Source: Amia ocellicauda (Eukaryota > Chordata > Actinopteri > Amiiformes > Amiidae). Taken from it: DNA of 64,000 bases. Shown here one piece after another: positions 4,313 to 52,300 of this stretch (position 1 is its first letter; every line of letters starts with the position of its first letter). The DNA lies in NCBI RefSeq assembly GCF_036373705.1, contig NC_089868.1, positions 15,668,520 through 15,732,519 of the forward strand, read 5' to 3'. Under the pieces are notes generated by a model. That model saw only the letters and a list, made by a program, of their open reading frames with translations. It was not told the origin of the DNA and did not search any database. Position numbers and translations under genes: made by a program.

Positions 4313-5533
4313 CACTCACCTAAAGGATTATTAGGAACACCATACTAATACTTTGTTTGACCCCCTTTCGCCTTCAGAACTGCCTTCATTCTACGTGGCA
4401 TTGATTCAACAAGGTGCTGAAAGCATTCTTTAGAAATGTTGGCCCATATTGATAGGATAGCATCTTGCAGTTGATGGAGATTTGTGGGATGCACATCCAG
4501 GGCACGAAGCTCCCGTTCCACCACATCCCAAAGATGCTCTATTGGGTTGAGATCTGGTGACTGTGGGGGCCAGTTTAGTACAGTGAACTCATTGTCATGT
4601 TCAAGAAACCAATTTGAAATGATTCGACCTTTGTGACATGGTGCATTATCCTGCTGGAAGTAGCCATCAGAGGATGGGTACATGGTGGTCATAAAGGGAT
4701 GGACATGGTCAGAAACAATGCTCAGGTAGGCCGTGGCATTTAAACGATGCCCAATTGGCACTAAGGGGCCTAAAGTGTGCCAAGAAAACATCCCCCACAC
4801 CATTACACCACCACCACCAGCCTGCACAGTAGTAACAAGGCATGATGGATCCATGTTCTCATTCTGTTTACGCCAAATTCTGACTCTACCATCTGAATGT
4901 CTCAACAGAAATCGAGACTCATCAGACCAGGCAACATTTTTCCAGTCTTCAACTGTCCAATTTTGGTGAGCTTGTGCAAATTGTAGCCTCTTTTTCCTAT
5001 TTGTAGTGGAGATGAGTGGTACCCGGTGGGGTCTTCTGCTGTTGTAGCCCATCCGCCTCAAAGTTGTACGTGTTGTGGCTTCACAAATGCTTTGCTGCAT
5101 ACCTCGGTTGTAACGAGTGGTTATTTCAGTCAAAGTTGCTCTTCTATCAGCTTGAATCAGTCGGCCCATTCTCCTCTGACCTCTAGCATCAACAAGGCAT
5201 TTTCGCCCACAGGACTGCCGCATACTGGATGTTTTTCCCTTTTCACACCATTCTTTGTAAACCCTAGAAATGGTTGTGCATGAAAATCCCAGTAACTGAG
5301 CAGATTGTGAAATACTCAGACCGGCCCGTCTGGCACCAACAACCATGCCATGCTCAAAATTGCTTAAATCACCTTTCTTTCCCATTCAGACATTCAGTTT
5401 GGAGTTCAGGAGATTGTCTTGACCAGGACCACACCCCTAAATGCATTGAAGCAACTGCCATGTGATTGGTTGGTTAGATAATTGCATTAATGAGAAATTG
5501 AACAGGTGTTCCTAATAATCCTTTAGGTGAGTG
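4313..5533 (-). mobile_element. Tc1/mariner transposon, DD36E (Incomer-like), copy 1, intact
   Basis: The element is 1,221 bp and bounded by perfect 29-bp terminal inverted repeats (4313-4341 and 5505-5533) beginning CACTCACCTAAAGG. TA dinucleotides lie immediately outside both ends, as expected for Tc1/mariner target duplication, in a TATATA-rich setting. It carries one complete transposase gene on the minus strand. The same element recurs inverted at 8939-10159, with equal length and very few differences. The family name rests on the 36-residue spacing between the second D and the E; it is an inference from recalled literature on Incomer. Confidence 0.95.
4345..5385 (-). CDS. Tc1/mariner transposase (DD36E), copy 1
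   Basis: An intact 346-residue transposase predicted to excise and reinsert the surrounding element at TA dinucleotides by cut-and-paste. The N-terminal ~110 residues look like the paired helix-turn-helix DNA-binding region (QSAQLLGFS...TTISRVYKEW). The catalytic acidic residues are D155 (VAWSDESRF), D246 (FQQDNAPCH) and E283 (SPDLNPIEHLW). The gap between D246 and E283 is 36 residues, unlike the 34 of classical Tc1, which points to the DD36E group. A GGGG stretch lies near 190-193. There is no stop or frameshift. By eye it differs from copy 2 at six residues: H12R, R19T, C36R, T234A, M333I and K345Q. The start ATG is at 5385. C36 replaces an arginine in the helix-turn-helix region that copy 2 keeps, so activity may differ. 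Confidence 0.95.
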   Translation of the reverse strand: MGKKGDLSNFEHGMVVGARRAGLSISQSAQLLGFSCTTISRVYKEWCEKGKTSSMRQSCGRKCLVDARGQRRMGRLIQADRRATLTEITTRYNRGMQQSICEATTRTTLRRMGYNSRRPHRVPLISTTNRKKRLQFAQAHQNWTVEDWKNVAWSDESRFLLRHSDGRVRIWRKQNENMDPSCLVTTVQAGGGGVMVWGMFSWHTLGPLVPIGHRLNATAYLSIVSDHVHPFMTTMYPSSDGYFQQDNAPCHKGRIISNWFLEHDNEFTVLNWPPQSPDLNPIEHLWDVVERELRALDVHPTNLHQLQDAILSIWANISKECFQHLVESMPRRMKAVLKAKGGQTKY

Positions 5534-8938: not shown

Positions 8939-10159
8939 CACTCACCTAAAGGATTATTAGGAACACATGTTCAATTTCTCATTAATGCAATTTTCTAATC
9001 AACCAATCACATGGCAGTTGCTTCAATGCATTTAGGGGTGTGGTCCTGGTCAAGACAATCTCCTGAACTCCAAACTGAATGTCTGAATGGGAAAGAAAGG
9101 TGATTTAAGCAATTTTGAGCGTGGCATGGTTGTTGGTGCCACACGGGCCGGTCTGAGTATTTCACAATCTGCTCAGTTACTGGGATTTTCACGCACAACC
9201 ATTTCTAGGGTTTACAAAGAATGGTGTGAAAAGGGAAAAACATCCAGTATGCGGCAGTCCTGTGGGCGAAAATGCCTTGTTGATGCTAGAGGTCAGAGGA
9301 GAATGGGCCGACTGATTCAAGCTGATAGAAGAGCAACTTTGACTGAAATAACCACTCGTTACAACCGAGGTATGCAGCAAAGCATTTGTGAAGCCACAAC
9401 ACGTACAACCTTGAGGCGGATGGGCTACAACAGCAGAAGACCCCACCGGGTACCACTCATCTCCACTACAAATAGGAAAAAGAGGCTACAATTTGCACAA
9501 GCTCACCAAAATTGGACAGTTGAAGACTGGAAAAATGTTGCCTGGTCTGATGAGTCTCGATTTCTGTTGAGACATTCAGATGGTAGAGTCAGAATTTGGC
9601 GTAAACAGAATGAGAACATGGATCCATCATGCCTTGTTACCACTGTGCAGGCTGGTGGTGGTGGTGTAATGGTGTGGGGGATGTTTTCTTGGCACACTTT
9701 AGGCCCCTTAGTGCCAATTGGGCATCGTTTAAATGCCACGGCCTACCTGAGCATTGTTTCTGACCATGTCCATCCCTTTATGACCGCCATGTACCCATCC
9801 TCTGATGGCTACTTCCAGCAGGATAATGCACCATGTCACAAAGGTCGAATCATTTCAAATTGGTTTCTTGAACATGACAATGAGTTCACTGTACTAAACT
9901 GGCCCCCACAGTCACCAGATCTCAACCCAATAGAGCATCTTTGGGATGTGGTGGAACGGGAGCTTCGTGCCCTGGATGTGCATCCCACAAATCTCCATCA
10001 ACTGCAAGATGCTATCCTATCAATATGGGCCAACATTTCTAAAGAATGCTTTCAGCACCTTGTTGAATCAATGCCACGTAGAATTAAGGCAGTTCTGAAG
10101 GCGAAAGGGGGTCAAACACAGTATTAGTATGGTGTTCCTAATAATCCTTTAGGTGAGTG
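8939..10159 (+). mobile_element. Tc1/mariner transposon, DD36E (Incomer-like), copy 2, intact
   Basis: A 1,221-bp element, the same length as copy 1 but in the opposite orientation. The terminal repeats are 28 matching bases (left 8939-8966, right 10132-10159). The left repeat differs from copy 1 at the 29th base. TA flanks both ends (8937-8938 and 10160-10161). The element sits in a TACA/TATA simple repeat. It carries an intact transposase gene. Confidence 0.95.
9087..10127 (+). CDS. Tc1/mariner transposase (DD36E), copy 2
   Basis: An intact 346-residue transposase with the layout of the copy at 4345-5385: helix-turn-helix DNA-binding region in residues 1-110, then a DDE domain with D155, D246 and E283. 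It retains R36 in the second N-terminal helix region (GFSRTTISRVYKEW), where copy 1 has C36. It therefore looks closer to a functional ancestor at that residue. There are no internal stops. The start at 9087 is the first ATG and gives the full family length. Near-identity to copy 1 implies recent transposition or a recent duplication. Whether the gene is expressed is unknown. Confidence 0.95.
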   Translation: MGKKGDLSNFERGMVVGATRAGLSISQSAQLLGFSRTTISRVYKEWCEKGKTSSMRQSCGRKCLVDARGQRRMGRLIQADRRATLTEITTRYNRGMQQSICEATTRTTLRRMGYNSRRPHRVPLISTTNRKKRLQFAQAHQNWTVEDWKNVAWSDESRFLLRHSDGRVRIWRKQNENMDPSCLVTTVQAGGGGVMVWGMFSWHTLGPLVPIGHRLNATAYLSIVSDHVHPFMTAMYPSSDGYFQQDNAPCHKGRIISNWFLEHDNEFTVLNWPPQSPDLNPIEHLWDVVERELRALDVHPTNLHQLQDAILSIWANISKECFQHLVESMPRRIKAVLKAKGGQTQY

Positions 10160-16600: not shown

Positions 16601-19600
16601 TGGAAAACAGTTCAAACTGAGAGATACTGTCCACAGGATTTGTTTTCCTAAGTGTTTCAGCATGCTCCTAGTACTATTATTAATAATCCAGCAGGAGAAC
16701 AAGACTCACATATTCACACATGCAGACTAATGATAACAGCAATATTATAATTATAATCACCAACACCACAAGGGCTGCTCATCAATTTACTTGTTCTACT
16801 AATGTGAGTGATTATTTTTTAAAGAACTTGTAATGCATTCTGATTTAGAAAAATTAGCATAGTACTTAACTCCAGTTCTTGTTTCTGTAGTTAACGCACA
16901 CATTGTTACAACAGTCTAGTAAAATGATGAGCTAGAGATACCAACTGCAATCCATTTTAAAAGCAATTGCTTCTAGCACAATCGGTAAAAGAAAATAACA
17001 CTCATCAGCACTTTAGTGGAGAGGAGAGAGGCAGAGAGGGGAAAAAGGTTCATGAAAAAGTTCATGAAACACACATACATAGGAGTCACCATGGACTTCC
17101 TTGAAAACCCTCAACTTTAGATTTAGTTGGATAGATAGTCTGAAATATATTGTCTTTCCTTGGTTGTCATTTTCTGCTTATAGTGCCCCTGGGATAATCA
17201 GACGCAGGTGCAGGATTTGAGAGCAGATCATATAGAGGTCAGGAAACATCAGCGTTCGTCAGCCTGCCCTGTACTAGGAACTGTACAATATCTTTAGACT
17301 GACAGGTCTAGAGGCTGTCTGGATCTTTACAGGGGAAATTGTCAGTCACCACCAGGCAATATTATTTCAACCTGCTGTGCTCGAGCTTTTCTAAATATAT
17401 GTTCTGCTCTCTGCTGCAATGGTTTCTTGATTTTCATTACAACCTTGAACACGTAGCAAAGCTTTCATATTCTCCAATGCCGAGTTCCACTTTTATTCAG
17501 TTGAAGAAATCTGACTGACTGCAAAAATGTAAGGGCTACAGCCAAACTAATTCTCTCTCAAGGCCAGCAGTGTGAAAAGCAGAGAATAAGTGATGCTTTT
17601 AAAGCCGCAAGACTAATAATGTAATGAGTCACCCAAGATCATATTTTGCTAAATCTTAAACGCTGTAGATTTTCATTGTTGGCATATATAAATAATCTTC
17701 AGCTTGATGTCCACATAGATTTTGTTTTAAATCATTTAAAACTTAAAAATCTCTGGGGGAGTAAAGAATTACACATTAAAAAGAAATGTTCCAGAAAAAG
17801 TGCTAAGAAAATACACTGACCGACCAAAACCCAGTAAACCACTGAAGAATTTACCTCCTACAGAACTCATTTCATTGTGATCTGGCTTCTGGCTATTTAA
17901 ACCAGCATGGGTTCAGCACATTCAGTTTTCTACAAAGCACATTGGAGGCAGTGATGCGATTAGGGAAAGGAAATCTGGATGTTTGAGTATTGCTCCATCT
18001 ACTGGACACAGGCTTCTATACAGCATATACCTCCCAACAATGATGTTAGTGCATTTAAACATGGCTGAAAGGGGCTGCACATTCGGGTTTATGAAATGTT
18101 TATCAGATTTCTTATGGGAAAAGAGGAAAACATGTAATCAACTCACCAAATGCTTTCATTGGTTCCACTAGCTTGAGGGTGAAGGTCTTTCCTTTTGGCA
18201 GTTCCTTCAGCATTCTGGCCACCTCGTAGTGTCTGGTGCCCACGATGTTTTGTCCATTGATACACTCTATGTGGTCCCCAACACAGATAACTTTAACGCC
18301 GTCAGCCACACTGCCTTCCTTTATGCGCTGGAAAACAGCAGCAACACAACGGTCATTTATTTACATCACACTGGTAAAAGCAGCCAAGAAGGATGACTAA
18401 AGATTTTGTTTTTCAATTAAGCATTAACAAGAGCTGCTGAAATCAGACACAATGCTTGCCAATGTGTTCGGCATAGTGTGAAGCGTTTAAATCAACACTT
18501 TCACCGCTTTTAAACACTCAGATTTAGACATCAGGATGATTATGGAGTGCAAGAGAAGATGTCATTCTGTATAAACAAGTGAACATAAAACATAATAGTT
18601 CACAAAAGATCAAATCCATTGCAAAGCATTTTGAGGGAGAACTTAATTTTAAACACGGCTTGAAAACTCCTAACATAAAATAAGTCAGCATGGGTCGTTC
18701 GTTCAGTAGTGCCACCAAATCATAATCAAAACTATCTAGCTGTGGGAATGATACAAACATTTTAATATCAGCATGAGAAGGGAGTGCCATTCTATACTGT
18801 CAAACTGGGCCAGCAAATTTAGTATAGTCCAAGGTGGATTAAAATTAAAATACATTCAGCAAACTATTATATTGAAGGCACAGGGATGTGTGCATTGCTT
18901 GTTGTTTAAGAGTCTGCGCAGAACACTTATTATAATTATAAAGAAATCTGGGAAAATCTTTGATGTTACTTTGAGTGCAGTGATGAATACACTTTAAAGG
19001 CTTGGGCCTTGTTGGGAAGGTCATGCGTTATTTATCTGCCTGGTATTTCTGTGGATTCTTTCATTTGAAGCATTACCGAGGCACTTAAATTAAAAAGCCA
19101 CCCTAACATGGCCAACTTTGGTCTTCCCTGTGCGTTCCATCTGAAATCCATTACTTAAATCACTGTACAACACATGTGATAACGGCATTTCTTTCCCTTT
19201 GATACAGTACTCTAAAAGTGTTCTAAGAATTTCTGAAATTTTGAGATGCGAAAGGAGTGGGGTGAGCTGTACAGAGAGATTCCATGACAAATTGGACTTT
19301 AAAAGCTGGAATATATAAAGCCGAATGAAGTGGCCTTCAAAATATCATACCGTTCAGTGGCTTTATACAGTGGGGGAAAAAAGTATTTGATCCCCTGCTG
19401 ATTTTGTACGTTTGCCCACTGACAAAGAAATGATCAGTCTATAATTTTAATGGTAGGTGTATTTTAACAGTGAGACACAGAATAACAACAAAAAAATCCA
19501 GAAAAACGCATTTCAAAAAAGTTATAAATTGATTTGCATGTTAAAGAGGGAAATAAGTATTTGACCCCTTCGACTTAGTACTTGGTGGCAAAACCCTTGT

Positions 19601-22600
19601 TGGCAATCACAGAGGTCAGACGTTTCTTGTAGTTGGCCACCAGGTTTGCACACATCTCAGGAGGGATTTTGTCCCACTCCTCTTTGCAGATCCTCTCCAA
19701 GTCATTAAGGTTTCGAGGCTGACGTTTGGCAACTCGAACCTTCAGCTCCCTCCACAGATTTTCTATGGGATTAAGGTGTGGAGACTGGCTAGGCCACTCC
19801 AGGACCTTAATGTGCTTCTTCTTGAGCCACTCCTTTGTTGCCTTGGCTGTGTGTTTTGGGTCATTGTCATGCTGGAATACCCATCCACGACCCATTTTCA
19901 ATGCCCTGGCTGAGGGAAGGAGGTTCTCACCCAAGATTTGACGGTACATGGCCCCGTCCATCGTCCCTTTGATGCGGTGCAGTTGTCCTGTCCCCTTAGC
20001 AGAAAAACACCCCCAAAGCATAATGTTTCCACCTCCATGTTTGACGGTGGGGATGGTGTTCTTGGGGTCATTCCTCCTCCTCCAAACATGGCGAGTTGAG
20101 TTCATGCCAAAGAGCTTGATTTTGGTCTCATCTGACCACAACACTTTCACCCAGTTCTCCTCTGAATCATTCAGGTGTTCATTGGCAAACTTCAGACGGG
20201 CCTGTACATGTGCTTTCTTGAGCAGGGGGACCTTCCGGCGCTGCAGGATTTCAGTCCTTCATGGCATAGTGTGTTACCAATTGTTTTCTTGGTGACTATG
20301 GTCCCAGCTGCCTTGAGATCATTAACAAGATCCTCCCATGTAGTTCTGGGCTGATTCCTCACCGTTCTCATGATCATTGAAACTCCACGAGGTGAGATCT
20401 TGCATGGAGCCCCAGACCGAGGGAGACTGACAGTTATTTTGTGTTTCTTCCATTTGCGAATAATCGCACCAACTATTGTCACCTTCTCACCAAGCTGCTT
20501 GGCGATGGTCTTGTAGTCCATTCCAGCCTTGTGTAGGTCTACAATCTTGTCCCTGACATCCTTGGACAGCTCTTTGGTCTTGGCCATGGTGGAGAGTTTG
20601 GAATCTGATTGATTGATTGCTTCTGTGGATAGGTGTCATTTATACAGGTAACGAGCTGAGATTAGGAGCACTCCCTTTAAGAGAGTGCTCCTAATCTCAG
20701 CTCGTTACCTGTATAAAAGACACCTGGGAGCCAGAAATCTTCCCGATTGATAGGGGATCAAATACTTATTTCCCTCATTAACATGCAAATCAATGTATAA
20801 CTTTTTTGAAATGCGTTTTTCTGGATTTTTTGTTGTTATTCTGTCTCTCACTGTTAAAATACACCTACCATTAAAATTATAGACTGATCATTTCTTTGTC
20901 AGTGGGCAAACGTACAAAATCAGCAGGGGATCAAATACTTTTTTCCCTCACTGTATGAACAATCATGCATTGCCTCTGACCAGGTGTATGGTTGTATACA
21001 GGTTTGATACGTGCTTGAAAGTAGCACAACTTTATGACGTTAATCCTTCACAGTGTGTTACTCAGATATGCAATGACAACACAAGCCGTTCAAATGTACA
21101 AGTGCATCTGTAAACCTAGATTCTGTTTACATCACAGCTGTGCCAATGAAATTCAAATCAACCTGCCCCACTGTTTGCTTTGCACACCTGACCTGGATAC
21201 GTTAGTAAAGATGTTAATATTAATGACCATTACAAAGCCCTTTAAATTTCTAATCAGCAGAAAACAAAACAGATCTTATTTTACATCTTGAAGTGGAACC
21301 TTTTCACATAGAACACTTATTTGCATTTAATGAATTTAGTTTAATGAAGTGGTTTAATATTCCAAAATTTCGAATTGCAGATGAACAATTTCTTTCCTAA
21401 GAGGTTTCTCTAACATGTGCTGGCACTTCACATACACTAGATGGCACATTAGCATTACCATGTCTTGGAAGCTTACTAATAAACCCAATTGTATAATGTT
21501 TCATTCGTATATAAATAATTGCAACTGTTCACACCAGCCCAAGTCCTAACCAAGTACCCCTTAAGAAATGCATACTACATGAATCCCCTCTCATCATTGT
21601 ATACCTTTATGAAAGCGTATCCGGCCCCATTGTCTGTGATGGTGAGCCCCAAGGCTTCTTCTGCTTTGAAGACCTCCACCTCTTTCTTTATTCCTTTTAT
21701 GTGGGCAAATATGAAGTCTTCCAGGCCTATCTGTCCTCCCAAGAGCTTGTCCATGTCAATCCTGTGAGTGTTTAGTGTACAGAACAGGATCTGTAGGAAT
21801 ATAAATAAAGCATAAGATACACAGCCACTTCAATGTATTCTTTGTACTAGAAATCATTGTGGAAACAACATTACTGTTACAGACTGTAGTGGATATGATG
21901 TGGATTGAACACATATTTTCAATTAATTCATATACAGTGTTACAGTCGAGAAATGTTATACAATTTTCCAGTTTAGAATTAAGATCTTTTTAGTCTTTTT
22001 CCTGTTTTGGTGCAGGAGTCTTTTAAATCACTCCTCAAGTGCTTAAGTTAGTAAATGTTTGAATTAATTAGTCATAGTCCAGTTGTGAACATATCAATAG
22101 ACATTAAATGCATATTAAGAAAAGCATAGATAAACATGAAACCAGTATTTCTCAAGGATTGTGTACACACCGTGTCACACTTATTCCATTACAAAACACA
22201 CATTATGCTTCATTTCCTCTTGCCATTGATATCAAGCTGTGAATGATCGAATGTTGTCCCAGGTTGCTTCCTGAGCACCAGATTCACCCCAAATCACTTT
22301 GCATTCTGTAACTGAATACAGCTATAATCTGTGTTCACAAATTGCCACAAAGTAAAGTAAAGTAAAATCCAGGTTCTTTAAACAAACCTTACCATTTTTA
22401 ACATGTGGCAAAACTAAGGAGATCATAAAAAATAGAAAATAAATGCATAATAAAAGTAGAAGACTTTAATTTAAACACATCAGGTGTCCTTATAATCTCC
22501 ATGTTACAACTACCAGATAAAGTATTTAAGTTAAACAGTAAGGAAGGGGTATTTTTTAATTTGTACCTTTTCAAAAATTGGATTTGCCTTCTCATGGTTT

Positions 22601-34366: not shown

Positions 34367-37300
34367 TTAAGACACCGGTAGATGGCGTTTGAGAACGTCC
34401 TTCGCGTTGGTAGGGAGACTGTCCGGAAAGGTCACGTCAAATTCCACTATGAGGTCTCCTCTCTGGTCGGGATTCTTGGGAAATGGAAGTCCTTGACTAG
34501 AAATTACCTTTCTCATGCCAGGTTTGACCACATCGATAAACTTCATATTAAATGATTTTCCCTCTAACGTTGGCACGGTGACCGAACAGCCACATAAGGC
34601 CTGAAAAGCAGAAAAAAAAACAATCATAATGGAATTATATATTACAATTTATTTTGTCTTCTATGATGCTCTTAAAATATGCATCGATCTGATTGTCTCC
34701 TCATTTTTGGTTTGATCTTTGAAGCATCATTTTTGTGAAGTACATAGTGTCATACTTACAGATACACGGCATTGTTAATAGTAAAAAGTGCCGCTGCAGA
34801 CTGCTTACAAAATAACATGCTCAGAACAGACTGCAAACATATCAGTTCTAGGCATATAATAGGATGTAACAGAGATAATGAATGACTTTCCAACATGGGA
34901 ATAAAATAATCTGTCCCTCCGTGGCTTTCAAAACTGAGAAAAGAGACAAGGCACATGAATGCAAAGCAATAGAAGCATCCAGGCTAATGCAGAGTCCAAA
35001 TTTATCTCTGTCTTGTACAAGCCTCCAGAGGGTTGTACAAGGAGCCATAAATATAGCTATAATCATTATTGCCATTTACAGTCAGAAACTTTGTATGAGT
35101 GTATTTTGTAGGAGGGAAAACTTTTATGTACTTGATATTTGGTTACAATTCATGTTTTCTGAGACAGAGTATAAAACTGCTTACAGCAGGGGAGAACAAG
35201 GCGATGTTGCCGTCTTTTTCTTTTTAATACCATACCTATGTTAGCTCGTTTAATGCCTACATGAACTAATAAATCAGCTTTCAAGATCTTTGCTAGGGAT
35301 TAATTTAGAAACCAGTACAAATAATATTTACTTCTCAATGACAGAAAATCTTCATGGCAAAGCTAGCTAGACAGTGACTCATTCAAAGGCTTTTCTCCAA
35401 AGCTATCTTTCTCTGAATGTTACTTTTGTAAATGGATGAAAATCAAGCATTCGATGGTGTATGTATTATATTTCTTTAACATGAACATAGTTTAGAAAAA
35501 TCTCACGTTGTGACATAATACAAACACAGTCATTTTGGTGTTAGTTTGAGTACTGAACTTCTACCCACCTGTCGTAAGGTGACCCTCACAGGGAACACGA
35601 TATTTGACCCCTCCCTCCTGTAGTGTGTATGAGGTTTGTCCTTAATGACAAAGACGATGTCCGCAGGGATTGTATTGGGCGACTCGTCTCCCTCTCTGGG
35701 GAAGGTGATTTTGGTGCCCTCTTTCCATCCCCTCTTGATCTCGATGGTGAGTATTTTGTCCTCTGTTCGCATGGTCCTGCCATCAGGGTTCAGCCTCTTC
35801 CTGGAGATCTTCATCCTCTTGGTGCAGCCATTGAAGATCTCCTCCAGGGACACCCTCAGCTCATGATGGATGGCGGGGTCCTGCTTGCGTCTGACCTGCC
35901 CCAACCCCATGTGTCTGTCCCGCGGGAAGCCGTTCAGGTTGAAGCTGCTGAAGGAACCGAAGGGATCTGAGTCCACCTCCATATCCTCCTCATCCCGCCC
36001 GTTGGCCGCCTTCCTCCCAAAGAACATTTCGAAGGGATTGGAGCCTCCAAAAAAGGCGGCGAATGTAGCATGGGGGTCTCCATGGAATGTGTAGGTGTAA
36101 TTCCCTCCCTGCCCGTCACAACCTCCTGCCCCTCCTTTAAGACCTAGCACAGGAATGAAAACACAGAGCTATTGGTTTCCCCCCATCACACAACACCACC
36201 CCTGCCACCGAGGGCACTGTCACCATCATCTGCCACTACATTGTACGATATCTGTGTCATTCTGAAATGAGTTTGTTGAAAATCATGACAATAATGTATG
36301 AATCAAAAGATATTTCAACCAATACACAGAATAAAATGGGAATGCTTTTCAAACACTGGTTGCTTCTATGAAATAGTAAATACAAATTCAGAGTCTATGC
36401 CTTTTTAGTCACAAATAAGCATTTTATCCCAAATAATGACAGCAAACGTAGGTGCATGTAATTTTGAAGGTTTTTGCCTTCCGGGGCTTGAGATTTAAAG
36501 CAGTTCCAAAATGCAGATCCTTAAAAGGAAAGTGTTTCCCTTTCTATTCTGCGTGGGATTTGCAGAAAGGATTGATGAGGTTGTAAGGGATGACTGTCTA
36601 GCCAATCGGGTAACAATTTCGGCATGTCGACATATGAAATCTTTATATATGTTTAGTATGGGCAGTTTTTTACTCATGTATGCGACTTTGTGTTATGGGT
36701 CTCATTAAGATATCCTAATGGTTTTCCTCTCAAATTAATGGCAATAAAATCCTAAATTCGAAATGAAGTTACAACTATAGAGCACTTAATGATAAACAAG
36801 AAACACAGAAACAAACCACACCAACATAACCTCTGGGATAGAAGTGTATCTCAAATATCAGTCCTAATAATGTTGAGACACAACACATACACTGGTCCAT
36901 GGAGCTCAGCCAGATGTCTCCTTTTACTGGAGCTAAATAGGGAACATTACTTTGATCCTTCTAGATTCTTCTCGACGATTACATGTATCGTTTCCATAAT
37001 TATTATAATAATAGTATTGACATTTTGACAACACTTGCTTGATTTAAAAACTTAAACATCAATACTATATATACTATATATACAGTATACATATATATAT
37101 ATATGATGCAAATAGCTCTGTCTATACCCTATAGAAGTAGCAAATTACATTCAAAATCATGATTCCCTCCTCAACAGGACATTGTCCAAGAAAATGAATC
37201 ACTTTACCTTCTTCTCCGAATTGGTCGTAAATCTCTCTCTTTTTGGGGTCGCTGAGAACTTCGTATGCCTCTGCGATTTCCTTAAATTTATCTTCTGCAT

Positions 37301-37418
37301 TGGCACTCTTGTTTTTATCTGGGTGCCATTTCAGAGCCTGCTTTCTGTATGCTTTCTTGATGTCTTCGTCCGCTGCTCCTTTCTGTATTCCCAGTATTTT
37401 GTAGTAATCCTTCCCCAT
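34367..37418 (-). CDS. DNAJB4: DNAJB4, type II Hsp40 co-chaperone, complete, three exons
   Basis: Delivers unfolded clients to Hsp70 and stimulates its ATPase in the cytosol. Minus-strand exons are 37208-37418, 35569-36143 and 34367-34600, all with GT-AG borders, giving 339 residues (human about 337). The J domain spans residues 1-70 with the HPD triad at 32-34 (KWHPDK). A Gly/Phe-rich linker follows from 71 to about 115 ([21 protein letters not shown]), then an acidic spacer ([10 protein letters not shown]). C-terminal domain I starts near 163 ([14 protein letters not shown]) and domain II near 262 ([15 protein letters not shown]). The exon structure matches the vertebrate gene. DNAJB1 and DNAJB5 are close relatives, but the GIPC2-FUBP1 neighbourhood selects DNAJB4. 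The promoter features upstream are listed separately. Confidence 0.97.
34601..35568 (-). other. DNAJB4 intron 2
   Basis: A 968-bp GT-AG intron between the two C-terminal-domain exons. I see nothing in it. Confidence 0.9.
36144..37207 (-). other. DNAJB4 intron 1
   Basis: A 1.06-kb GT-AG intron directly after the J-domain exon. It contains a TATA-rich run near 37065-37105 and a TTCTAGATTCTTC heat-shock-like string near 36959. No exon is recognised. Confidence 0.85.
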
Positions 37419-37523
37419 TTTCGTGCGCTACCGGGAGCCCGTATGCAGGCAGATCTGTTTCGCCTCCACAGTAATGCACCCGGCGACAGGGAAACGCGGC
37501 TCTTATAGACAGGGATGACTGCT

Positions 37524-39088: not shown

Positions 39089-42000
39089 ATGGATCAGTTC
39101 CGCGGCCTGTTCCTTAAACTAGACAAGAATAAGGATGGGTTTATTGCCGTGGAGGAGCTGCACAAAGAAATGACGAGAATCGGAGTTTTATCCGCAAATG
39201 AGAAAGCTCAGGTAATAATCTCCTGCGACATGATTTAGCGCTCACTAATTCAACAAACATGATCCCCATTGATACAATCTTCTCTAATGTATCTGTAGGA
39301 TTATGTCTAACAGATGTATATGGATGTAAGCTACTAAAGGTTTTTGCATTCTTGTTTTTTTTGTGTTTGTTTTTTGGTGAGAGTAAATTAAGCTGATTTT
39401 TGTAATACCTTCTGTTGTACAATCCATCACCTTGCCTTTCAGTCCATAGTAACCAGCTATGACCGAAATGACGATGGCCGTCTAGATTATGACGAATTCT
39501 TGGTTTACATGATGGACAGAGAAAAGAAGTGGAAACTAAACTTTCAGATCCTTGACAAAAATAACTGCGGTGAGCGCACATTAAATGTTATACAACTTGC
39601 AATGATATCCAATATTTGTACATTCAAACTCACAGATATTTTAGACGTTTCAACTTGCTCTATGTGGAAAATACTTAGTGTTACTCAGCTGGTTTCAAAT
39701 AATGTATTGAATCGGTAATTCTTACTTAGTGTAAGCCCTTAATTCACTGATTATTTACATTTTTCATTGTATTGCATCCTATTAAACACGTGGAGTTGGC
39801 AATTTTGATATGATCATTCAGTGCACTTGACATCTAGAACTGGGAGAGTGACTTGTTTTAATTAATTCTGAATTAAGGAAATCATATAAATAACTGAAAG
39901 CACAAAAATGACAAGAGGGGACAGGGCCTGGGAAAAAAATAAATGGACTTGACCCCTGTAAACACTGTTTCAAGGTCTCTTGTATGTAGGGTATATACAC
40001 ACTGTGTGATCTTTGTTGCTAGAGCAAATAGTGCACAGTGGTTTGATCAGTCACAGCCAGGAAATCAGAAAAGTGGTTGTAGTTCAGGTTTCATTCAAAA
40101 CCTACTCAAAGAGAATCACACTTAATAAGAACGTCCACAATTCAATCTAAGATTTCTCTTGAGCTTTTGCTCCAGTTATGCTAAATATCCATCCGGTCTT
40201 TTGCTGTTTTATATTATATGCTGTATTAAGGAGACTCATTGCACTATACAATCCAAACAGAAATGTTATAGAGAAAATATTCTATTCTAATCTCATATAT
40301 CTGATACAAGTCTAAAGTCAAGCATCTTGTATTCTGTCTATGTTTTAACCCACTAGTACAGCAATATTGTTTCATGGTAGAACAGGACTTAGATTTTACT
40401 ACTCCCTGTAAATCCAGATCCAAAGTGTAAAGGTTATAGGTCAGTCAGATAGAGATTTCTGTGAATTGTTTTGTATTAATCTCCATTTATTTTCTGTTAC
40501 TAGGCTTCATTGACCAGGAAGAGATCATACATTTGTTTAAGGAGTTAGGAGTGGTCATTTCAAAGCCACATGCAAAGAAAATAATACAAATGTAAGATTT
40601 GTTTTCGTGCTTTTTGATTAATGAATATCAAAGTACAATAAGCTGCTAACTTGTCTCTGTGCTCCATTTGTGATCACCTTGAAGAGATTACTTTCTTATT
40701 TCTTAAAGGATGGATAATGACAACTCCATGACAGTGGACTGGAGCGAGTTTCTGCAGCACATAATTCTGAATCCGGCTGAGGACATAGGAGAGCTGGTTT
40801 CTTCATGGAAACGCTGCATGGTAAAGATTTATATCAAAGCTTTGGTTTATGAATGTCAAAAAAGTGAATACATTACTATATTGGCCAGATTTTCAATCTG
40901 TCTTGCTCCGTGCTGCTGCAGGATTGGTCCAGTGTATAACAAAACCGTGACAGACTACGATATTGTGAATGTTGAATACACAATGCACCAACAGTGTACT
41001 CCTCATGCCCACAGGTATTTGACGTTGGTGAAAGTCGATCTATGCCAATGGAGTTTACACAGGAAGAGACTGACTCCGGAGCCTGGAAGTATATTTTAGC
41101 TGGAGGGCTATCAGATGCCGTGTCCAGGACTGTCACTGCACCCATTGATCGATTGAAAACTCAACTTCAAGTAACTGAATACATGCTGCTTTTTATATAT
41201 AATGAGCAGATTGAATAACACATGTTTTTGAGGGTGTACTATTGTATTATACATACCAGTAACTTTTAGCCTAACTGGAAAGTCAATGTCCAAAGCATCG
41301 TATAATATATATGAGAATAAAAGAGGGATGTGGTGATTTTAAATGCTGTATTTAGAGAAGGTCTCCAAGATTAAATTATTATCTTTGTGTAGGTGTATGG
41401 TTCCAGTGCACAGGGGTTCAGAGGGATGAGAGCTGGTGGTATCAAGTCTATGTGGCAGGGGAATATAGCGAATGTGTTGAAGGGAACTCCACAGTCAACT
41501 CTCCAGTACGTCATATATACTCAGGTTTGTTGTTGCGTTTGTTACATAATAGGATAATGACATAATAGGATAGTTTCACATTTCAAAGGTGTGCTTTAAA
41601 GTAAGGTAATGTAGAGATTTAACACATAGTTTCTTGTTCAGTGTAAACAAACCATACCATTAAAGTAGAAGACATTCTACCTCTGTGGTAGAGGCTGTGT
41701 TAGACTGGATATCAGAAAACTTCCAGTTGCCACTGTTATCATTCTTGTATTAAAGTGTGAGTACAGTATGTGAAGTTTAATTGGGATAGTCAAAGAAAGC
41801 TGATTATGTATGATGGGTGATATGTTCTTTTTTTAAATGTATGTAAAGACTATACTACACGGTTTTGATATTATTTTGTTGTTACACCAGAACATGCAGA
41901 ACAATTGACTACCCTGCTGTAATGTGTGTCTTCTGCAGATGAAGCATCTTGGTAGTGTCTCAGAAGACAAATTGACTATCCAACAAAGGTTTGGACTTGG

Positions 42001-43492
42001 CTGTGTATCCGGCGCAGCGGCACACGCTGTGTTTTATCCCTTAGAGGTACAACGGAACAGCGGGAGACCTGCTCACGCCACACAAAATATCACCGTGTTC
42101 CTGGGTCTATACACAAGTACTTCAGCTGTCAGGAATAACACGCCTACACACTGAAAAAATACATTTTAGCACTAAATATGCAGCCTCCTAATAAGGAAGC
42201 AATTTAATACCTAAGGATATGACACAAAATGTGTAAACTGACACAGTTGTTATATGATTGGAAAGAAGTACTAGAGAGAACAAAAAAAGTTTGTGAAATA
42301 TAGTAGATCACACAGTAAACTGAAACAGGGGATGTGGGTACATGTACTTTCTGATGAAAAGCCTGAAGGAGATATTCACTCTGATTGGAGCTCCTGGTTG
42401 TCATGCCAATTTGGCTGCGTTTCCCTGAAGTGGGCGGCAAAGAAACAGAACAGCTGACATTTGAGTATCAGTAGCAAGTTGGCCCGTTTATGTCATATCA
42501 TGTCGTCCTACTGATAACTGAGTCATGCATTACAGACATAAGAGTGATAGGTGTGCAAGTTCAATTCCTGTATATCTGAATTACCTATAATATCCAGTGT
42601 GTTTAATTTGATGGGATTCAATTTCAATTTCAGTGTACAGAGTATGTTTTTGTAGTTATTTATACTTTTGGAATTTGATAACGAATTTCTGAATGTCAAG
42701 CACACTGCAAACATTTAAAAAAAAAACGATCCCTGCCAAAACACTGAAGTTACATTGCTTCCTCTTTCAGGTTATAAAAGTCAGCCTGAATCTTCAACCG
42801 GCTGGTACATACACAGGCCTTGTGGGGTGTGCAAAATCCATTTACCAACACGAATCAATAGCTGCCTTTTATAGAGGTTTTAAGCCGAGCGTAATGTGCA
42901 TGATACCCTATGCAGGCGTGGAGTGTGCAGTTTATCATGTAAGTAGCCTACAGATCCTCAAAGTCCTTAAACTAAACAAATCTCAAAAACTTTACTAAGA
43001 TTGATGGTTTCTTCTCTATATTTCCTTTTCCTTTGATCACAGTCCATTATGAACTGGGCAAAAGCAGATCCAGCCAACAGCAGTGACTCAAAACTGTTCT
43101 GCTATAGCTTCGTTGCATTTGCTTCTGGACAGACTGCAAGTTACCCTTTGGCAGTGATCAGAACTCAGCAACAAGCTCAGGGTAAGAGATTCATTCAGCA
43201 TAGCAATTTCTACAGCCGAGTTTCATTAAACTGTTTTCCAAACTGTATTTGTAAGACATGAAAAAAAAACAATATTTATATTGATCAGGTATTTTCTTCT
43301 GTGTTTACTTCTCTTTCAGCTATTACAAAAACACAGTACAGTACCTTTGAAGCACTTAAACTCAGCTATGTGAATCATGGGATTAGAGGATTTTACAGTG
43401 GAATGGGCGCCAGTTTCGCGAGAGCATTTCCTTGTGCCATTATAAACTATACCTTAGCATCCAAACTGGAAGTTTTGTTTTCCCTTTCATGA
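39089..43492 (+). CDS. SCaMC-type calcium-binding mitochondrial carrier (SLC25A24-like), complete, ten exons
   Basis: SCaMC carriers exchange ATP-Mg for phosphate across the inner mitochondrial membrane when Ca2+ binds their EF-hands. Exons: 39089-39211, 39443-39569, 40504-40591, 40709-40820, 41015-41170, 41393-41524, 41939-42046, 42771-42938, 43043-43181 and 43320-43492. All are GT-AG and give 441 residues (human SLC25A24 is 477). EF-hands 1 (D12-E23) and 2 (D48-E59) are canonical. EF3 (from D79) has C83 where Asp or Asn is usual, and EF4 (D115-E126) is present. The carrier signatures are PIDRLK 193-198, PLEVIK 280-285 and PLAVIR 373-378. The ATG at 39089 has a strong context (A at -3, G at +4). 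It omits about 20 N-terminal residues seen in SLC25A24, and a pyrimidine-AG just before it leaves an upstream exon possible. The protein is clearly divergent from SCaMC-1, -2 and -3, so I give no symbol. A minus-strand gene lies on its left and FUBP1 on its right. Confidence 0.92.
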
Positions 43493-45629: not shown

Positions 45630-46330
45630 GTCCACACTGCGTCTGCGCAGTCGGGCACTCAATTCCGCCTGCAAAAGCGTCGCGAAAACAACCCGAGTCG
45701 CGCCCTGCCGACCCCGCCCCCCGCCTGGATTGACACCTGCGACAACCAACCAGCGCCCGCAAACGGAGTCCCGCGAGAGCACGCCGCCACGCTATCCCCG
45801 CCCCCCGCCGTGTCGCAGAGCTACCTGCTCTCTCCGAGACGAGCGGCCATCTTCTCTTTACTTCCACGAGTGAGAAGAGCGACTGTTGCACAGGATGGCT
45901 GATTACTCTAGCGTGGCTCCTCCGTCCTCCGGCGCAGCTGGCGGGATGAACGACGCTTTTAAAGATGCCTTGCAAAGGGCGAGACAGGTGAGTCACCGTG
46001 TTGGTCATTATTTCGCACAGTTGGTGGTGTTGTTCATAAAAAAACACATTCGGGCTACAACAAAGCCCCGCTTGCCGAGAGCCTGCTTAGGCCCAGCTTT
46101 GTCCCGCAAAAACACCGTAACAAAGGACGGCGCCACTTCGGGAGCAACGGCTTCCACATGGAGAAAAACGTATTACTTGCTGTAACCGTATATTGTCCGG
46201 GTTTTTATGTCGAGGAGTGGATGGTCGCACATCCGCGGCTCGTTTGACGTGTCCCGTCGTTTTTCTCGCTGAAGGCCCGAATGAGCCCGAGTGAAATGCG
46301 CAGGAAAAATACTGTACTGGTGACGACGAG
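45630..46330 (+). promoter_or_regulatory. CpG-island promoter of FUBP1
   Basis: CpG-dense sequence surrounds the first exon. An NRF1-like string (tctgcgcag) lies at about 45646-45654, GC boxes (cccgccccccgcc) near 45711 and 45796, and a YY1-type site (GCCATCTT, reverse of AAGATGGC) at 45846-45853, 42-49 bp before the start codon. The pyrimidine-rich tcttctctttacttcc just after it could be the initiator. No TATA box is seen. This is a housekeeping-type promoter. Confidence 0.75.
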
Positions 46331-49300
46331 GAAGGAGGTCTTTTCCTGCCGAGTTAAACGGCCCAACGGCGGATTCAGTTTTTTTAAAACGTTGGTTACG
46401 TTTCCAAGGCCAAAGTTTACCGTTTTGTAACTAAATGTAGGCCTATATTAATAAGTTACGACGTGTTATACGGTAGAATGGTTAAAAAAAATATATTTAC
46501 GTATGATAAACGTGTGCTCAAGTTTCCTTCCTGGAAAAGTGCATCTCGCTCGTTTACTTTCTCTTGTGCGTTTGATCTGTGTATTGTGGCGAATATTTTT
46601 ATTTAATCCCAGCCTTGTTTATTTGTATGCACATAACTACGTCAGTTAACGGCTTATATATAATCCCAGAAGTTCGAAATCCATGATCTAAGTAGTAAAA
46701 AAAAAAATAGCCATCACTTTGCATGCTATATTTATGTGGGTACAATATCTTTTTCAATGATTTCCCCCCAGATTGCTGCTAAAATCGGCGGGGACACTGG
46801 TGGTGCTCCCCCACCCACTACCAATGAGTTTGGTTATGGAGGTCAGAAAAGACCACTAGAAGATGCAGGTAAGTTTTCTTTCCTATACGAACCTCTACAA
46901 TTAAATAGCAGATTCAAAATAGCCTAGGTTTATATTAAAGACGTTTAGAACCAGTTTTTTTGAAGCAATCTCCTGAACTTGCAAGAATTTCCATTTTATT
47001 CTGCATTTCCCGTTTTTTTTAGCTGAACCAAAATCTGTTTCCCTTTCATTTTCCAAGTGCCTGCTTGTATCTCTGTACGTGTTAGTTGTATACATACAGA
47101 AGCTGTATTCCATTATCCAAACAAATCTGTTTTTCCCCCCCCATATAAAATGTCTCAAATGTTTATACTTCAATCACTGTGTATGCTGTACTGCACTTTA
47201 CATGTTTCATGTTTTGACAACATGGATTTACATTGACTTCAGTTTAAACTAGTTGCTGAATTGAAAGTTATAGATCCTTTAGTGCTGCTTCACAATACGT
47301 TTTCCGTGTTTGAGCGCATATTACATATAGATTTCATGTATTAGTTTCTAGAAACATAAAAGTAGCAATTGGCATGGCAAATCCTAAGTATTGTACTAAG
47401 GGTGTGCTTGTAGTGTACTTAATGGGGGGAGAAAAAAAAAACTGATTCTCCAGTACTTCCATTTGAAAATGGTGAAAGGCCAAGCTTATGATGCTTCAGC
47501 TCATTTGTATCATGTGTTCTTTTTATTTCATGTGTAGATGACTCTTGGACAGGTCTGAACAGTAGAACACACTGGGAGGGAATGCCTCCTCCTTTCAAAG
47601 GCAGGAACCTTTTGCTTATTAAACCTGTGTGTAGTATGTGAATGTGTAAAAGTGTCAGCCCACTTTAGATGCCCTGCTCTGCAAAATGTTTTTATTTCTT
47701 TAACTAGCTGTGTTCATTTTATAAGCATTCCATGATCCAATATTTAACATTTGGAATGTAGGTCATTAGTGTTTGGCCATTTGCATGAGGGCCAGATACA
47801 TTTACAAAAAACACAGCCTAAGACGTTCAGATGTTTTCTTAATATTTGTTTTAGGGTAACATGGATTAAAGTCTCTTTAAATAAAATGCAGTAAGATACA
47901 CAGTTTGAGCTTTGCGTGGCATATCAATATTTTGTCCATCCTTGAACATTTTGAAAGCATTGTTAAACAGTGCTTTACACTGAAATTGACAACACTATAC
48001 AAATGTTTTCCTTGTTGACTGAGGTAAACCTCATTGTGCATTACATAATTAACAAATAACTGGAGATTTTGTCCTTTTAATTGAATTGTTTGGAAAATGG
48101 AAAGGCAATTTTCTTTTGAGTAATGAACCTTTATATTCTATGAAACTATCAGCTCCTTGCTTGTTTTCTGCAGGACTGTGTGAATCAACTTGGTTTTCGA
48201 TTAATGAATAGAACTGCTGCTAGAAATATAGCGTGTTTGTGGTTTTATTGTAGCTACATTTCTAGAACTAATTTATTCAAAAACTTGTCTCCTTTTCAGC
48301 ATCTTATTGGTGGGATACCAGTAAAGTACAATGAGGCATTTCATTTTATAGAACATTCTCATTTTTATTGCAGATCAACCAGAGACAAAGAAGGTGGCTT
48401 CACAGAATGATCGTAAGTTTCTAATTTCAACACTTAACTTTTTTTTTTAACTTTCCTTCAAAAATTTTAATCTTTACATGTATAATCACCCCCTGTGAAT
48501 GCTTAAGTTACTGAAATATTTAATCGGTTTCTAGGCACCAGGCTAAACTCCAGTTTCTCACTTGTATTCACTTCATTAAAAAGTTTTTGCTCAAATTGTA
48601 CTGCCTTTTCTTACAGCTTTTTCTTCTGCAATGGGGGGGATGAACCAGCCCCAGAGGTAATGTCTTGTAACTTTTTCTGTGTGGACTGTAGCATATTTTG
48701 GAAGTTTAGTACTTACTTGCACTCTGATTAACCTGCCCTATGCATTTACCATAAACTTTATAGAATATTAGTTTCTAGAATAAATCTTATCGGCTTTGTA
48801 ATTTTTTTAATTTAATTTTAATTTTTTTTGTTTAATAAAGGTCTGTTTCTGAGGAGTTTAAAGTTCCAGATGGCATGGTTGGATTTAGTAAGTCAGTTTT
48901 CAGTTTGTTTTTTTTGTAGTTTTTAAAAAAAAATTTGCTCATTTTAAATGACTGTCTTTAATTTTTATCCTTAGTCATTGGTAGAGGTGGTGAACAAATT
49001 TCTCGCCTGCAGCAAGAATCTGGATGTAAAATACAGATTGCCCCTGGTAAGTCATTGGTTTCATTTAATTTTAAAGTTTAAGGTAATGAATTACACAGGA
49101 CACTTTGATTTAATGCTTTTGGTTTGTAGTATATAGCATTATAATTTATTTGTAACACTGTAGCCTTTATTTGAAATATTTGCGTTGTAGTGGTTAATAA
49201 AGGTTTTTACTTGGGATGTGTGTTTGTGTTGTGTTTATTATTTGGCTAAAATAGTCTGTTAACCTTCTACATTCTGCCTCTTGACAATTTCATCTTCAAT

Positions 49301-52300
49301 ATCTAGACAGTGGTGGACTTCCTGACAGATCTGTGATGTTGACCGGATCCCTCGATTCCATCCAGTAAGTGACATTTGAGCCCCTATTTCTTCTTTAGGA
49401 ATGTCAAATGTTCTAGAATCATTTTTTTTTTTTTTTTCCCCGATTGACTTTGATTGTTATTCTATTTCTGTTTCGAAGGACTGCAAAGAGGTTATTAACT
49501 GAAATTGTAGAGAAGGGTCGACCTGGACCCGTTTTCCACCATTCGGATGGACCAGGAATGGCAGTCCAGGAAATCCTAGTTCCTGCCACAAAAGCTGGAT
49601 TGGTGATTGGAAAGGGTGGTGAAACGATCAAACAGTTACAGGTAATGAAGCTATGATCAAATCCACTGTTGGAGGAGGAGTTTCCAGCACGAAATTGCCT
49701 CGGGTACAAACTGCTCTTTCTTCATCTAACAGGAGCGTGCCGGAGTGAAGATGGTTATGATTCAGGAGGGACCACAGAACACTGGTGCAGACAAACCACT
49801 CAGGATTTCAGGAGAACCCTTTAAAGTCCAGGTATATAGATTACATTTGAAAACATGAAAGGGGGAAGATAATATTTATTGGGCAAGCACTTAACTTAAT
49901 TTTTCATTTATTTTTTATAGCAAGCCAAAGAGATGGTGATGGAGCTGATCCGCGATCAGGGCGGCTTCAGAGAGCAGCGTAATGAGTATGGGTCCCGAAT
50001 GGGAGGCAGTGACTGTAGCTTAGATGTAAGTGAAAGTCTGGATGTAAGTAAAAACAACAACTCGGCCACAGCATGTAACACGTTTTTAGGTGGGTAATGA
50101 TGTTTGTTGGGAGTATAGGTTAATGTTCAATGCAAACACGACTATTTGTTTTCTTAAAACAGGTTCCTGTGCCAAGGTTTGCCGTGGGAATTGTGATAGG
50201 CAGGAATGGAGAAATGATCAAAAAGATTCAGAATGATACTGGTGTGAGGATTCAGTTTAAACCAGGTATGTTAGATTTATTGTAACCCATGTTTTTATAT
50301 ATAGTAATCTTTAGATTTATAAAACCTGATTGAGTTGTAAATTAACCAATAGCTTTATATAGAGATCTGTTGATGTGCTTCAAGTAATTGTATTAAACTG
50401 CTGTAAGAGTGCAATGTCCCAGGGCTGGAAGTATGACTCATGTAAGGACCTTGTATGAAATTAAATGTAAGCTGCTTCATGGTTTTCTTGTTTTAACTTC
50501 AGATGATGGAAGCACCCCAGAGAGAATAGCTCAGATCATGGGCCCACCAGACCGGTCACAGCATGCTGCAGAAATCATCACAGATCTCCTCAGGAGCGTG
50601 CAGGTGTGTTTAAAACTCAAATAAGACTTACTTAATCTCCTGATAACAATTGACTTCTGTCACTCACTGCAGATTAGCAGTCAGGCAAATCCCAGGCACT
50701 GCCTACTATAGAAATGTTTACTACTGTTTAAATGGGTTTATTTTATTGACATGACATTTCTAAACACTTTTCCGTATCTGCAGGCTGGTGGACCACCTGG
50801 ACCAGGGGGAAGGGGACGAGGACGCGGACAGGGCAACTGGAATATGGGCCCACCAGGTGGACTTCAGGAGTTCAGCTTCACTGTGCCCACAATGAAGACT
50901 GGACTCATAATTGGGAAAGGTCAGCCATGTGTCATTTTATGCAAAACCAAGATGAAATTCACATTTTTACACTGAGCATGTTTTTCCTCTGGATGTGTTA
51001 GAAACCCACATGTTTTATGTTCCAGGTGGAGAGACTATTAAAAGCATAAGCCAGCAGTCTGGTGCCAGAATCGAGCTGCAGAGGAATCCCCCTCCCAATG
51101 CCGATCCCAGCCTGAAAATGTTCACCATCCGTGGGTCTCACCAGCAGATTGACTATGCCAGACAGCTTGTTGAGGAGAAGATTGGGGTGAGTGTAATAGA
51201 TCAAAACATGCATAGGCCAGTATTTACTGTAATTTAATTTTGTATTCATGCTAGTGTGAAATATAATACTAATAATTGAATATTTAAATGTTGTTCTTTA
51301 GTGAAAAGTTCTATAAATTGAACCCTTTTTTCCAGGGTCCGGTAAGTCCTCTGGGTGGTCCACATGGTCCCCCAGGGCCTCATGGAGGTCCAGCTCCTCA
51401 TGGGCCCCCAGGACCCCCAGGGCCACCTGCTCCAATGGGTCCTTATAACCCAGGACCCTACAACCAGGGCCCACCAGGACCTCAGTAAGTACAAATGCCA
51501 CTTAGGTGTAAACATTACATCTTAGTTCTGTACAAGGATGTTTGTTTCTGTTCATTGTTACTGTACTGGGGCGAGTCCGTTTTAGAATATTCAGGCTAGA
51601 TTTCAGAAACATCAGTCAGTCATCGCAAGTAAGGCTAAAAACCAAGAATAGTGATTTATTCCTGTAATGTTACTTTCATGTAATTTCCTTTGCTAGTTCA
51701 GGTATGATTTAAAACTCTTAACATGTAAATTGTTGTACGATTCCCCACCCTCTGGCCTGTTTCCAGAGCTGATCCTCTGATTTTTGTTTTAGTGGTCCTC
51801 CTGCACCATATCAGCCACAGGGATGGGGAAATGGCTTCCCACATTGGCAGCAGGGACAACAAGATCCCGGTAAGTGAGCGTTCCCTAATTTTATTTAAAA
51901 ACATCCCAAACGACAATCGTTTAGAAACTAAAGCTTTCATACTTTGGATAGTTTTTTTTTATATATATATATACTGCTCTAATCCCACTATGGGTTTATG
52001 TACACTTGTGAATGACTCCTTTTGTGCTCTGCATGTTTTATATGCATGTTTCACAGGTAAAGCAGCAGCAGATGCTAATGCAGCAGCATGGGCAGCTTAT
52101 TATTCTCAGTATCAGCAACAACCTCAAGCACCCATCGCAGCCACAAACGCTGCCCCAGGGTCTGCACAAACGAACGGACAAAGTAAGTCATCGTTCAGGC
52201 CTACTCCCCTCCTTCGCTGCAGTATTTCAGTGTAGCATGCTGTTCTGAGATGTGTGAAGTTTGATATTTTGGTTTGATTAGCATCTTGCTAAGGAAACCA

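Follow-up and report, generated by a model that had tools for sequence, protein, structure and literature searches.

A SCaMC-type carrier gene beside FUBP1 in Amia ocellicauda, probably an old vertebrate paralogue with an altered cytoplasmic gate

The 64,000-nucleotide stretch of Amia ocellicauda DNA analysed here (the window; C25:15668520-15732519, C25 being contig NC_089868.1) contains a SCaMC-type mitochondrial carrier gene between a DNAJB4-type gene and FUBP1, an interval in which human is not known to have a SCaMC carrier gene. The locus raises the questions of how old this gene is, how it came to stand beside FUBP1, and whether its product could still exchange ATP-Mg for phosphate (Pi). 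We conclude that it is probably a SCaMC paralogue dating from the early vertebrate duplications (2R) or older, occupying an ancestral SCaMC-FUBP slot in the FUBP1-bearing copy of the paralogon, because the gene is intact, shares its introns with its paralogues, is near saturation at silent sites and fits a repeated synteny pattern.

Structure and integrity of the carrier gene

The spliced exons amount to 1326 nt, corresponding to 441 codons and one terminal stop with no internal stops, and all nine introns are of the GT-AG type. The ATG start at 39089 has a good context (AAGCATGG) and is preceded by an in-frame stop. Residue positions below are published ones in human numbering, mapped with a human sequence that agrees at 15/15 numbered residues.

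39089..43492, + strand: SCaMC-type gene, 10 coding exons, 441 aa (from splicing, Pfam and PDB matches)
39089..39211, + strand: exon 1, with the ATG and a canonical EF-hand 1 loop (DKNKDGFIAVEE)
39443..39569, + strand: exon 2, with a canonical EF-hand 2 loop (DRNDDGRLDYDE) and the start of the EF-hand 3 loop
40504..40591, + strand: exon 3, remainder of EF-hand 3; its loop, DKNNCGFIDQEE, has C at position 5
40709..40820, + strand: exon 4, EF-hand 4; ERD-clasp R148 replaced by L and D149 by Q; start of the amphipathic-helix region
41015..41170, + strand: exon 5, linker and H1 with matrix motif PIDRLK
41393..41524, + strand: exon 6, H1-H2 loop shorter but in frame; in H2, K260 kept and E264 replaced by Q; cytoplasmic motif YEQxK changed to YTQMK, which ends in exon 7
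41939..42046, + strand: exon 7, start of repeat 2 and first part of the H3 matrix motif (PLE)
42771..42938, + strand: exon 8, H3 motif PLEVIK completed; in H4, G353 replaced by C, I354 by M and D361 by E, with Y357 kept
42771..42938, + strand: cytoplasmic motif of exon 8, YExLK changed to YHSIM, completed in exon 9
43043..43181, + strand: exon 9, H5 matrix motif PLAVIR kept
43320..43492, + strand: exon 10, H6; contact K453 replaced by R; cytoplasmic motif YExxK changed to ASKLE; stop TGA

Pfam finds Mito_carr (166 bits, three stretches) and EF-hand_7 (77.8 bits, two stretches) in the product. In the PDB, human SCaMC-1 matches the product best through its EF-hand domain (4n5x, E 3.3e-40), and the matches after 4n5x and 4zcu are ADP/ATP carriers. 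The original prediction of a complete ten-exon SCaMC gene, with four EF-hand loops, three carrier repeats, an intact frame and nine of nine GT-AG introns, is borne out. The protein has the N-terminal domain with four EF-hands typical of SCaMCs together with three carrier repeats bearing Px[DE]xx[KR], and is by descent a member of the SCaMC family. A scan of the protein against viral contigs gave no match.

SCaMC family in the genome

Searching the genome (988 Mb in 385 contigs) with the 441-residue product gave 56 matches with E values up to 10, and the ones from which SCaMC genes can be assembled lie at four loci:

C25, within the window, + strand: the carrier gene described here
C25:21.26 Mb, - strand: SLC25A24-like (A24-like) gene
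C9:5.44 Mb, + strand: SLC25A25-like (A25-like) gene
C7:0.19 Mb, + strand: SLC25A23-like (A23-like) gene

The window gene was found once. The A24-like gene lies ~15 kb from the first exon of VAV3, and the A23-like gene adjoins a KHSRP-like gene. The A25-like gene has K at position 3 of EF-hand 3, which is stated for APC2, one of the ATP-Mg/Pi carriers (APCs), in PMC6283063. The paralogue models begin at EF-hand 1, except that of the A25-like gene, whose exon 1 was not found in gene modelling.

Identity of the window product to its paralogues is 38.7-40.5% (A24-like 40.5%, A25-like 40.5%, A23-like 38.7%), against 65.2-68.7% among the other three. At the 237 gap-free positions invariant in the three paralogues, 127 residues are kept in the window product and 110 differ. 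The introns agree in position and phase, at 9/9 with the A24- and A23-like models and 8/8 with the A25-like model, and a retrocopy is ruled out by these nine shared introns; the lengths of modelled exons 2-9 are equal between paralogues or differ by multiples of three. A single closest paralogue was sought among two-against-two sites and gave no clear signal (seven sites joining the window gene with A23, five with A25 and three with A24). Searches for FUBP, VAV and SCaMC genes each give one strong locus per named subtype, and there is therefore no sign of teleost-type third-round duplicates, as would suit a fish outside the teleosts.

Synteny of SCaMC, FUBP and VAV genes

On C7, the A23-like gene (190.0-197.3 kb, + strand) is followed by the KHSRP-like gene (+ strand), with KH exons at 203.2-205.5 kb and a first exon, recognised by eye as an open frame, near 200.9 kb, ~3.6 kb downstream of the A23-like gene; inspection of this gap by eye revealed no other gene. 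The longest PDB match of the KHSRP-like KH piece is to FUBP1 (1j4w, 151 bits), but over a KH domain alone KHSRP 2hh2 (146 bits) outscores FUBP1 6y24 (112 bits), hence the name. The window carrier stands upstream of FUBP1 in the same order and orientation as the A23-like gene upstream of the KHSRP-like gene, a FUBP1 paralogue. The chromosome of the A25-like gene holds a third FUBP gene (C9:2.84 Mb), which by elimination is FUBP3 and lies ~2.6 Mb from the A25-like gene.

First exons of VAV genes are found at C25:21.25 Mb, C7:1.79 Mb and C9:8.41 Mb, the one on C25 matching Vav-3, such that C25, C7 and C9 each carry a VAV gene, a FUBP gene and at least one SCaMC gene. C25 holds two SCaMC genes, one near VAV3 and one beside FUBP1, ~5.5 Mb apart. 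This thrice-repeated linkage is as expected of a 2R paralogon. In human, SLC25A24 lies by VAV3, and KHSRP, SLC25A41 and SLC25A23 lie together.

The simplest account would be that an ancestral VAV-SCaMC-FUBP block was copied in the 2R duplications. The window gene would then be the occupant of the FUBP slot and the positional counterpart of SLC25A23 beside KHSRP, with SLC25A24 standing elsewhere on the same chromosome near VAV3. An SLC25A24 orthologue would be sister to A24 and near VAV3, and the window gene does not show this combination; a separate A24-like gene is present ~15 kb from VAV3 exon 1. Between that exon and the A24-like gene, open frames were seen by eye at C25:21253211-21256305 (+ strand), and these resemble an ADP-ribosylglycohydrolase-type gene.

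Age and phylogeny

Identity at fourfold-degenerate sites is given below, with the identity expected from composition in brackets.

Window-A24: 21/72, 0.292 (0.247)
Window-A25: 21/71, 0.296 (0.234)
Window-A23: 17/78, 0.218 (0.224)
A24-A25: 45/116, 0.388 (0.255)
A25-A23: 53/134, 0.396 (0.295)
A24-A23: 45/141, 0.319 (0.274)

A recent lineage-specific duplicate is unlikely because silent sites are near saturation and are little affected by relaxed constraint on the protein. The original prediction had left open an ancient paralogue or a lineage-specific duplicate relocated to this interval; the ancient paralogue is favoured, and a recent duplicate is disfavoured by the silent-site saturation, by protein identities of at most 40.5% and by the FUBP-adjacent slot and orientation shared with the A23-like gene. 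The protein has also evolved fast, as its branch measures 1.3-1.5 substitutions per site and those of the other SCaMC tips 0.05-0.28. In 200 neutral simulations in which the A24-like coding sequence was altered to the observed identity, using point changes along one branch only, internal stops numbered 11.6 on average (minimum 3, maximum 21), and the gene has none.

The tree contains nine rows: the four SCaMCs, SLC25A42 and one ADP/ATP carrier of this genome, and three human rows, of which two are partial sequences. The best constrained tree joins the window gene to A25 (approximately unbiased test, p-AU 0.867), and positions as sister to A23 (p-AU 0.258) or outside all three (p-AU 0.164) are not rejected. 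A position as sister to A24 is rejected by the approximately unbiased test alone (p-AU 0.034), the Kishino-Hasegawa (0.073) and Shimodaira-Hasegawa (0.085) tests leaving it standing.

Calcium-binding domain, gates and substrate contacts

The strict PROSITE EF-hand pattern fits two of the four loops of the window protein (EF-hands 1 and 2), and EF-hand 4 departs from it at a position where the paralogues depart too. An identical script counts two loops in the A24-like protein, three in the A23-like and none in the A25-like, for which EF-hand 1 is not modelled; the number of pattern-matching EF-hands therefore does not distinguish the window gene. In the ERD clasp only E88 is kept, with R148 replaced by L and D149 by Q; position 149 is E in the A24-like protein and D in the A25- and A23-like proteins. 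The window protein retains pin residues K167, E183 and R291 and has E in place of D176, in common with the A23- and A25-like proteins.

The two gates of the carrier domain differ. The matrix motifs (PIDRLK, PLEVIK and PLAVIR) are identical to those of the paralogues at 9/9 motif positions, and the animal APC consensus likewise has A in the third repeat (PMC6283063). With 85/176 invariant carrier-domain positions kept (a 48% background), retention of all nine has a chance probability of 0.0014 for positions picked by the analyst from the published motif. The cytoplasmic network, with consensus Y[ED]xx[RK] and described as highly conserved in APCs (PMC6283063), reads YTQMK, YHSIM and ASKLE and keeps 3/9 positions, which lies at the background (binomial 0.29) and is by itself no excess of change; retention in the two networks nonetheless differs (Fisher p 0.009). 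Among the ATP-Mg contacts, R209, K260 and Y357 are kept, K453 and D361 are conservatively changed to R and E, and G353, I354 and E264 are lost to C, M and Q. Judged by the cytoplasmic network and the ERD clasp, the window protein is outside the description of an ATP-Mg/Pi carrier.

Predicted function and alternative explanations

APCs are exchangers with matrix and cytoplasmic networks of about equal strength, and net importers have been hypothesised to have a matrix network that is strong and a cytoplasmic network that is weak (PMC6283063); the window protein has the asymmetry of this hypothesis. It would be a carrier of the mitochondrial inner membrane whose N-terminal domain, partly conserved, binds calcium. 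The motifs of the matrix gate are retained, as are the cationic contacts to phosphate (R209, K260 and, as R, K453); most of the cytoplasmic salt-bridge motif is lost, together with the adenosine/Mg contacts G353, I354 and E264 and, of the ERD clasp, two residues out of three. This pattern leads to the prediction that the protein is no strict ATP-Mg/Pi exchanger; its transport of a phosphate-type anion or an altered nucleotide might be net or uniport-like, under altered calcium control. The most far-reaching proposal, a fourth ancient vertebrate SCaMC subtype that is absent from mammals, is one-gated (matrix gate intact, cytoplasmic gate dissolved) and performs net transport of an anion or nucleotide, is put forward tentatively, and we lean against it.

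Several of these results weigh against an old paralogue with a new transport mode. The silent-site test is limited in power, since the A24-A23 pair, undoubted kin, is also near expectation; with this pair about as saturated as the window gene, the test speaks for a very old gene without placing it before the paralogue splits. The unconstrained tree places the outgroup on human A24, splitting the A24 pair, and its rooting is therefore unreliable. The gene tree leaves the branching unsettled and mildly disfavours an A24 duplication. As to function, the loss of motifs could mean lost transport rather than a new mode, and the carrier could be locked shut, because mutation of any single ERD-clasp residue in human APC1 yields an inhibited carrier (PMC6283063).

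Among other origins, we consider it quite unlikely that SLC25A24 was duplicated on the same chromosome after 2R and that the copy moved beside FUBP1 and then evolved fast. The two genes do share C25, ~5.5 Mb apart, therian mammals have a tandem duplicate of SLC25A24 (PMC3391283), and two of the three tree tests tolerate the A24-sister position, but the p-AU of 0.034, the near saturation of silent sites to A24 and the slot and orientation shared with the A23/KHSRP-like pair, which would have to be a coincidence, all speak against it. A tandem SCaMC duplicate made before 2R, outside the A23/A24/A25 clade and kept only at the FUBP1 locus, would be a special case of the old paralogue and seems rather unlikely: the long branch, the 110/237 changed paralogue-invariant positions and the p-AU of 0.164 for a position outside all three are as it would predict, but long branches can be drawn outward artefactually and under the best constrained topology the gene goes with A25.

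The alternatives on function turn on the same residues. That the protein is an intact carrier still doing ordinary ATP-Mg/Pi exchange is unlikely; it does retain R209 and K260 for contact with phosphate, as well as pin residues K167, E183 and R291, but E264 to Q, G353 to C and I354 to M are changes in substrate contacts and the cytoplasmic network, highly conserved in APCs (PMC6283063), keeps 3/9 positions. A decaying gene or pseudogene without carrier function would account for the loss of most of the cytoplasmic gate motif, two clasp residues and substrate contacts, but is very unlikely for a gene free of internal stops and frameshifts, with GT-AG ends on all nine introns, a matrix motif conserved at 9/9 positions and modelled-exon length changes that are all multiples of three.

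Neighbouring genes in the window

The carrier gene is flanked as follows.

34370..37427, - strand: DNAJB4-type gene, extent approximate, head to head with the carrier gene
37125-37427, - strand: J domain (Pfam)
35533-36168, - strand: DnaJ_C (Pfam)
34370-34648, - strand: DNAJB4-type piece, recognised by eye
45895..52232, + strand: FUBP1 (KH domains), from open frames, extent approximate

FUBP1 is identified by PDB matches to FUBP1 at E 7e-60 (1j4w) and 9e-48 (6y24) versus 2e-25 for KHSRP, and the rightwards-transcribed carrier gene stops 2.4 kb ahead of its presumed start on the same strand. On the other side, the DNAJB4-type domains are found by Pfam, but the top PDB match of the J domain is DNAJB1, and the name DNAJB4 consequently rests on synteny. 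The start codons of the DNAJB4-type gene (37418) and the carrier gene (39089) are head to head, ~1.7 kb apart; without the carrier gene, DNAJB4 and FUBP1 would stand head to head. Farther out, the window contains an Ig-domain gene, presumably nexilin, and a GIPC gene with a GH1 domain.

Two Tc1/mariner-type transposase frames of 346 aa, near-identical by eye, are located at 4348-5385 (- strand) and 9087-10124 (+ strand), the second recognised by Pfam. A similar pair of frames occurs at C25:21.2845-21.2885 Mb, on the upstream side of the A24-like gene. At 19578-20635 (- strand) a distinct Tc1/mariner-like transposase, split over two overlapping frames, was seen by eye.

Relation to known carriers and implications

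In domain order the window protein resembles SLC25A24/SCaMC-1 (human APC1), which has the same four EF-hands and three matrix motifs and provides the top PDB match with its EF-hand domain; intron positions are also identical to those of the A24-like gene of this genome. The window protein differs in being 40.5% identical to that A24-like protein, in its cytoplasmic network, two clasp residues and several contacts, and in its neighbour, the A24-like gene being the one close to VAV3. With SLC25A23/SCaMC-3 it has in common the slot and orientation upstream of a FUBP-family gene, but the identity is 38.7%. SLC25A25/SCaMC-2 is joined to it in the best constrained tree, yet is 40.5% identical and has its FUBP gene ~2.6 Mb off. 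Human SLC25A41 lies between KHSRP and SLC25A23 and has an A23-like sequence; an SLC25A41 orthologue was dropped as a candidate for this A23-derived look and for its lack of an EF-hand domain. SLC25A41 (SCaMC-3L) is an extra SCaMC too, but is without the N-terminal domain (PMC6283063).

Mouse SCaMC-1Like (4930443G12Rik) is similarly a fast-evolving SCaMC with four EF-hands (PMC3391283). It is a tandem duplicate adjoining SLC25A24, dated by its authors to mammals after the monotreme split, is 75-78% similar to SCaMC-1 and keeps the substrate residues; they searched databases for a SCaMC-1L orthologue in vertebrates other than mammals and found none (PMC3391283). Identity of the window gene with this therian gene was set aside, since SCaMC-1Like has a different position and a much higher similarity to SCaMC-1 (PMC3391283). 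The main text of PMC3391283 has no word starting fish, zebrafish, synten, DNAJB4, Xenopus or chicken, and no description of the window gene was found, by title or the start of the abstract, among the open-licence papers listed. Automatic genome annotation may already carry the gene under a 'SCaMC-1-like' label. There may be a zebrafish gene named slc25a24l.

If an orthologue proves widespread outside mammals, the vertebrate ATP-Mg/Pi carriers would have had one founding member beyond A23, A24 and A25, and the SCaMC-FUBP-VAV linkage offers a simple framework for the origin of these carrier genes. The gene would also provide a natural test, inside one subfamily, of whether the balance between matrix and cytoplasmic networks decides exchange versus net transport.

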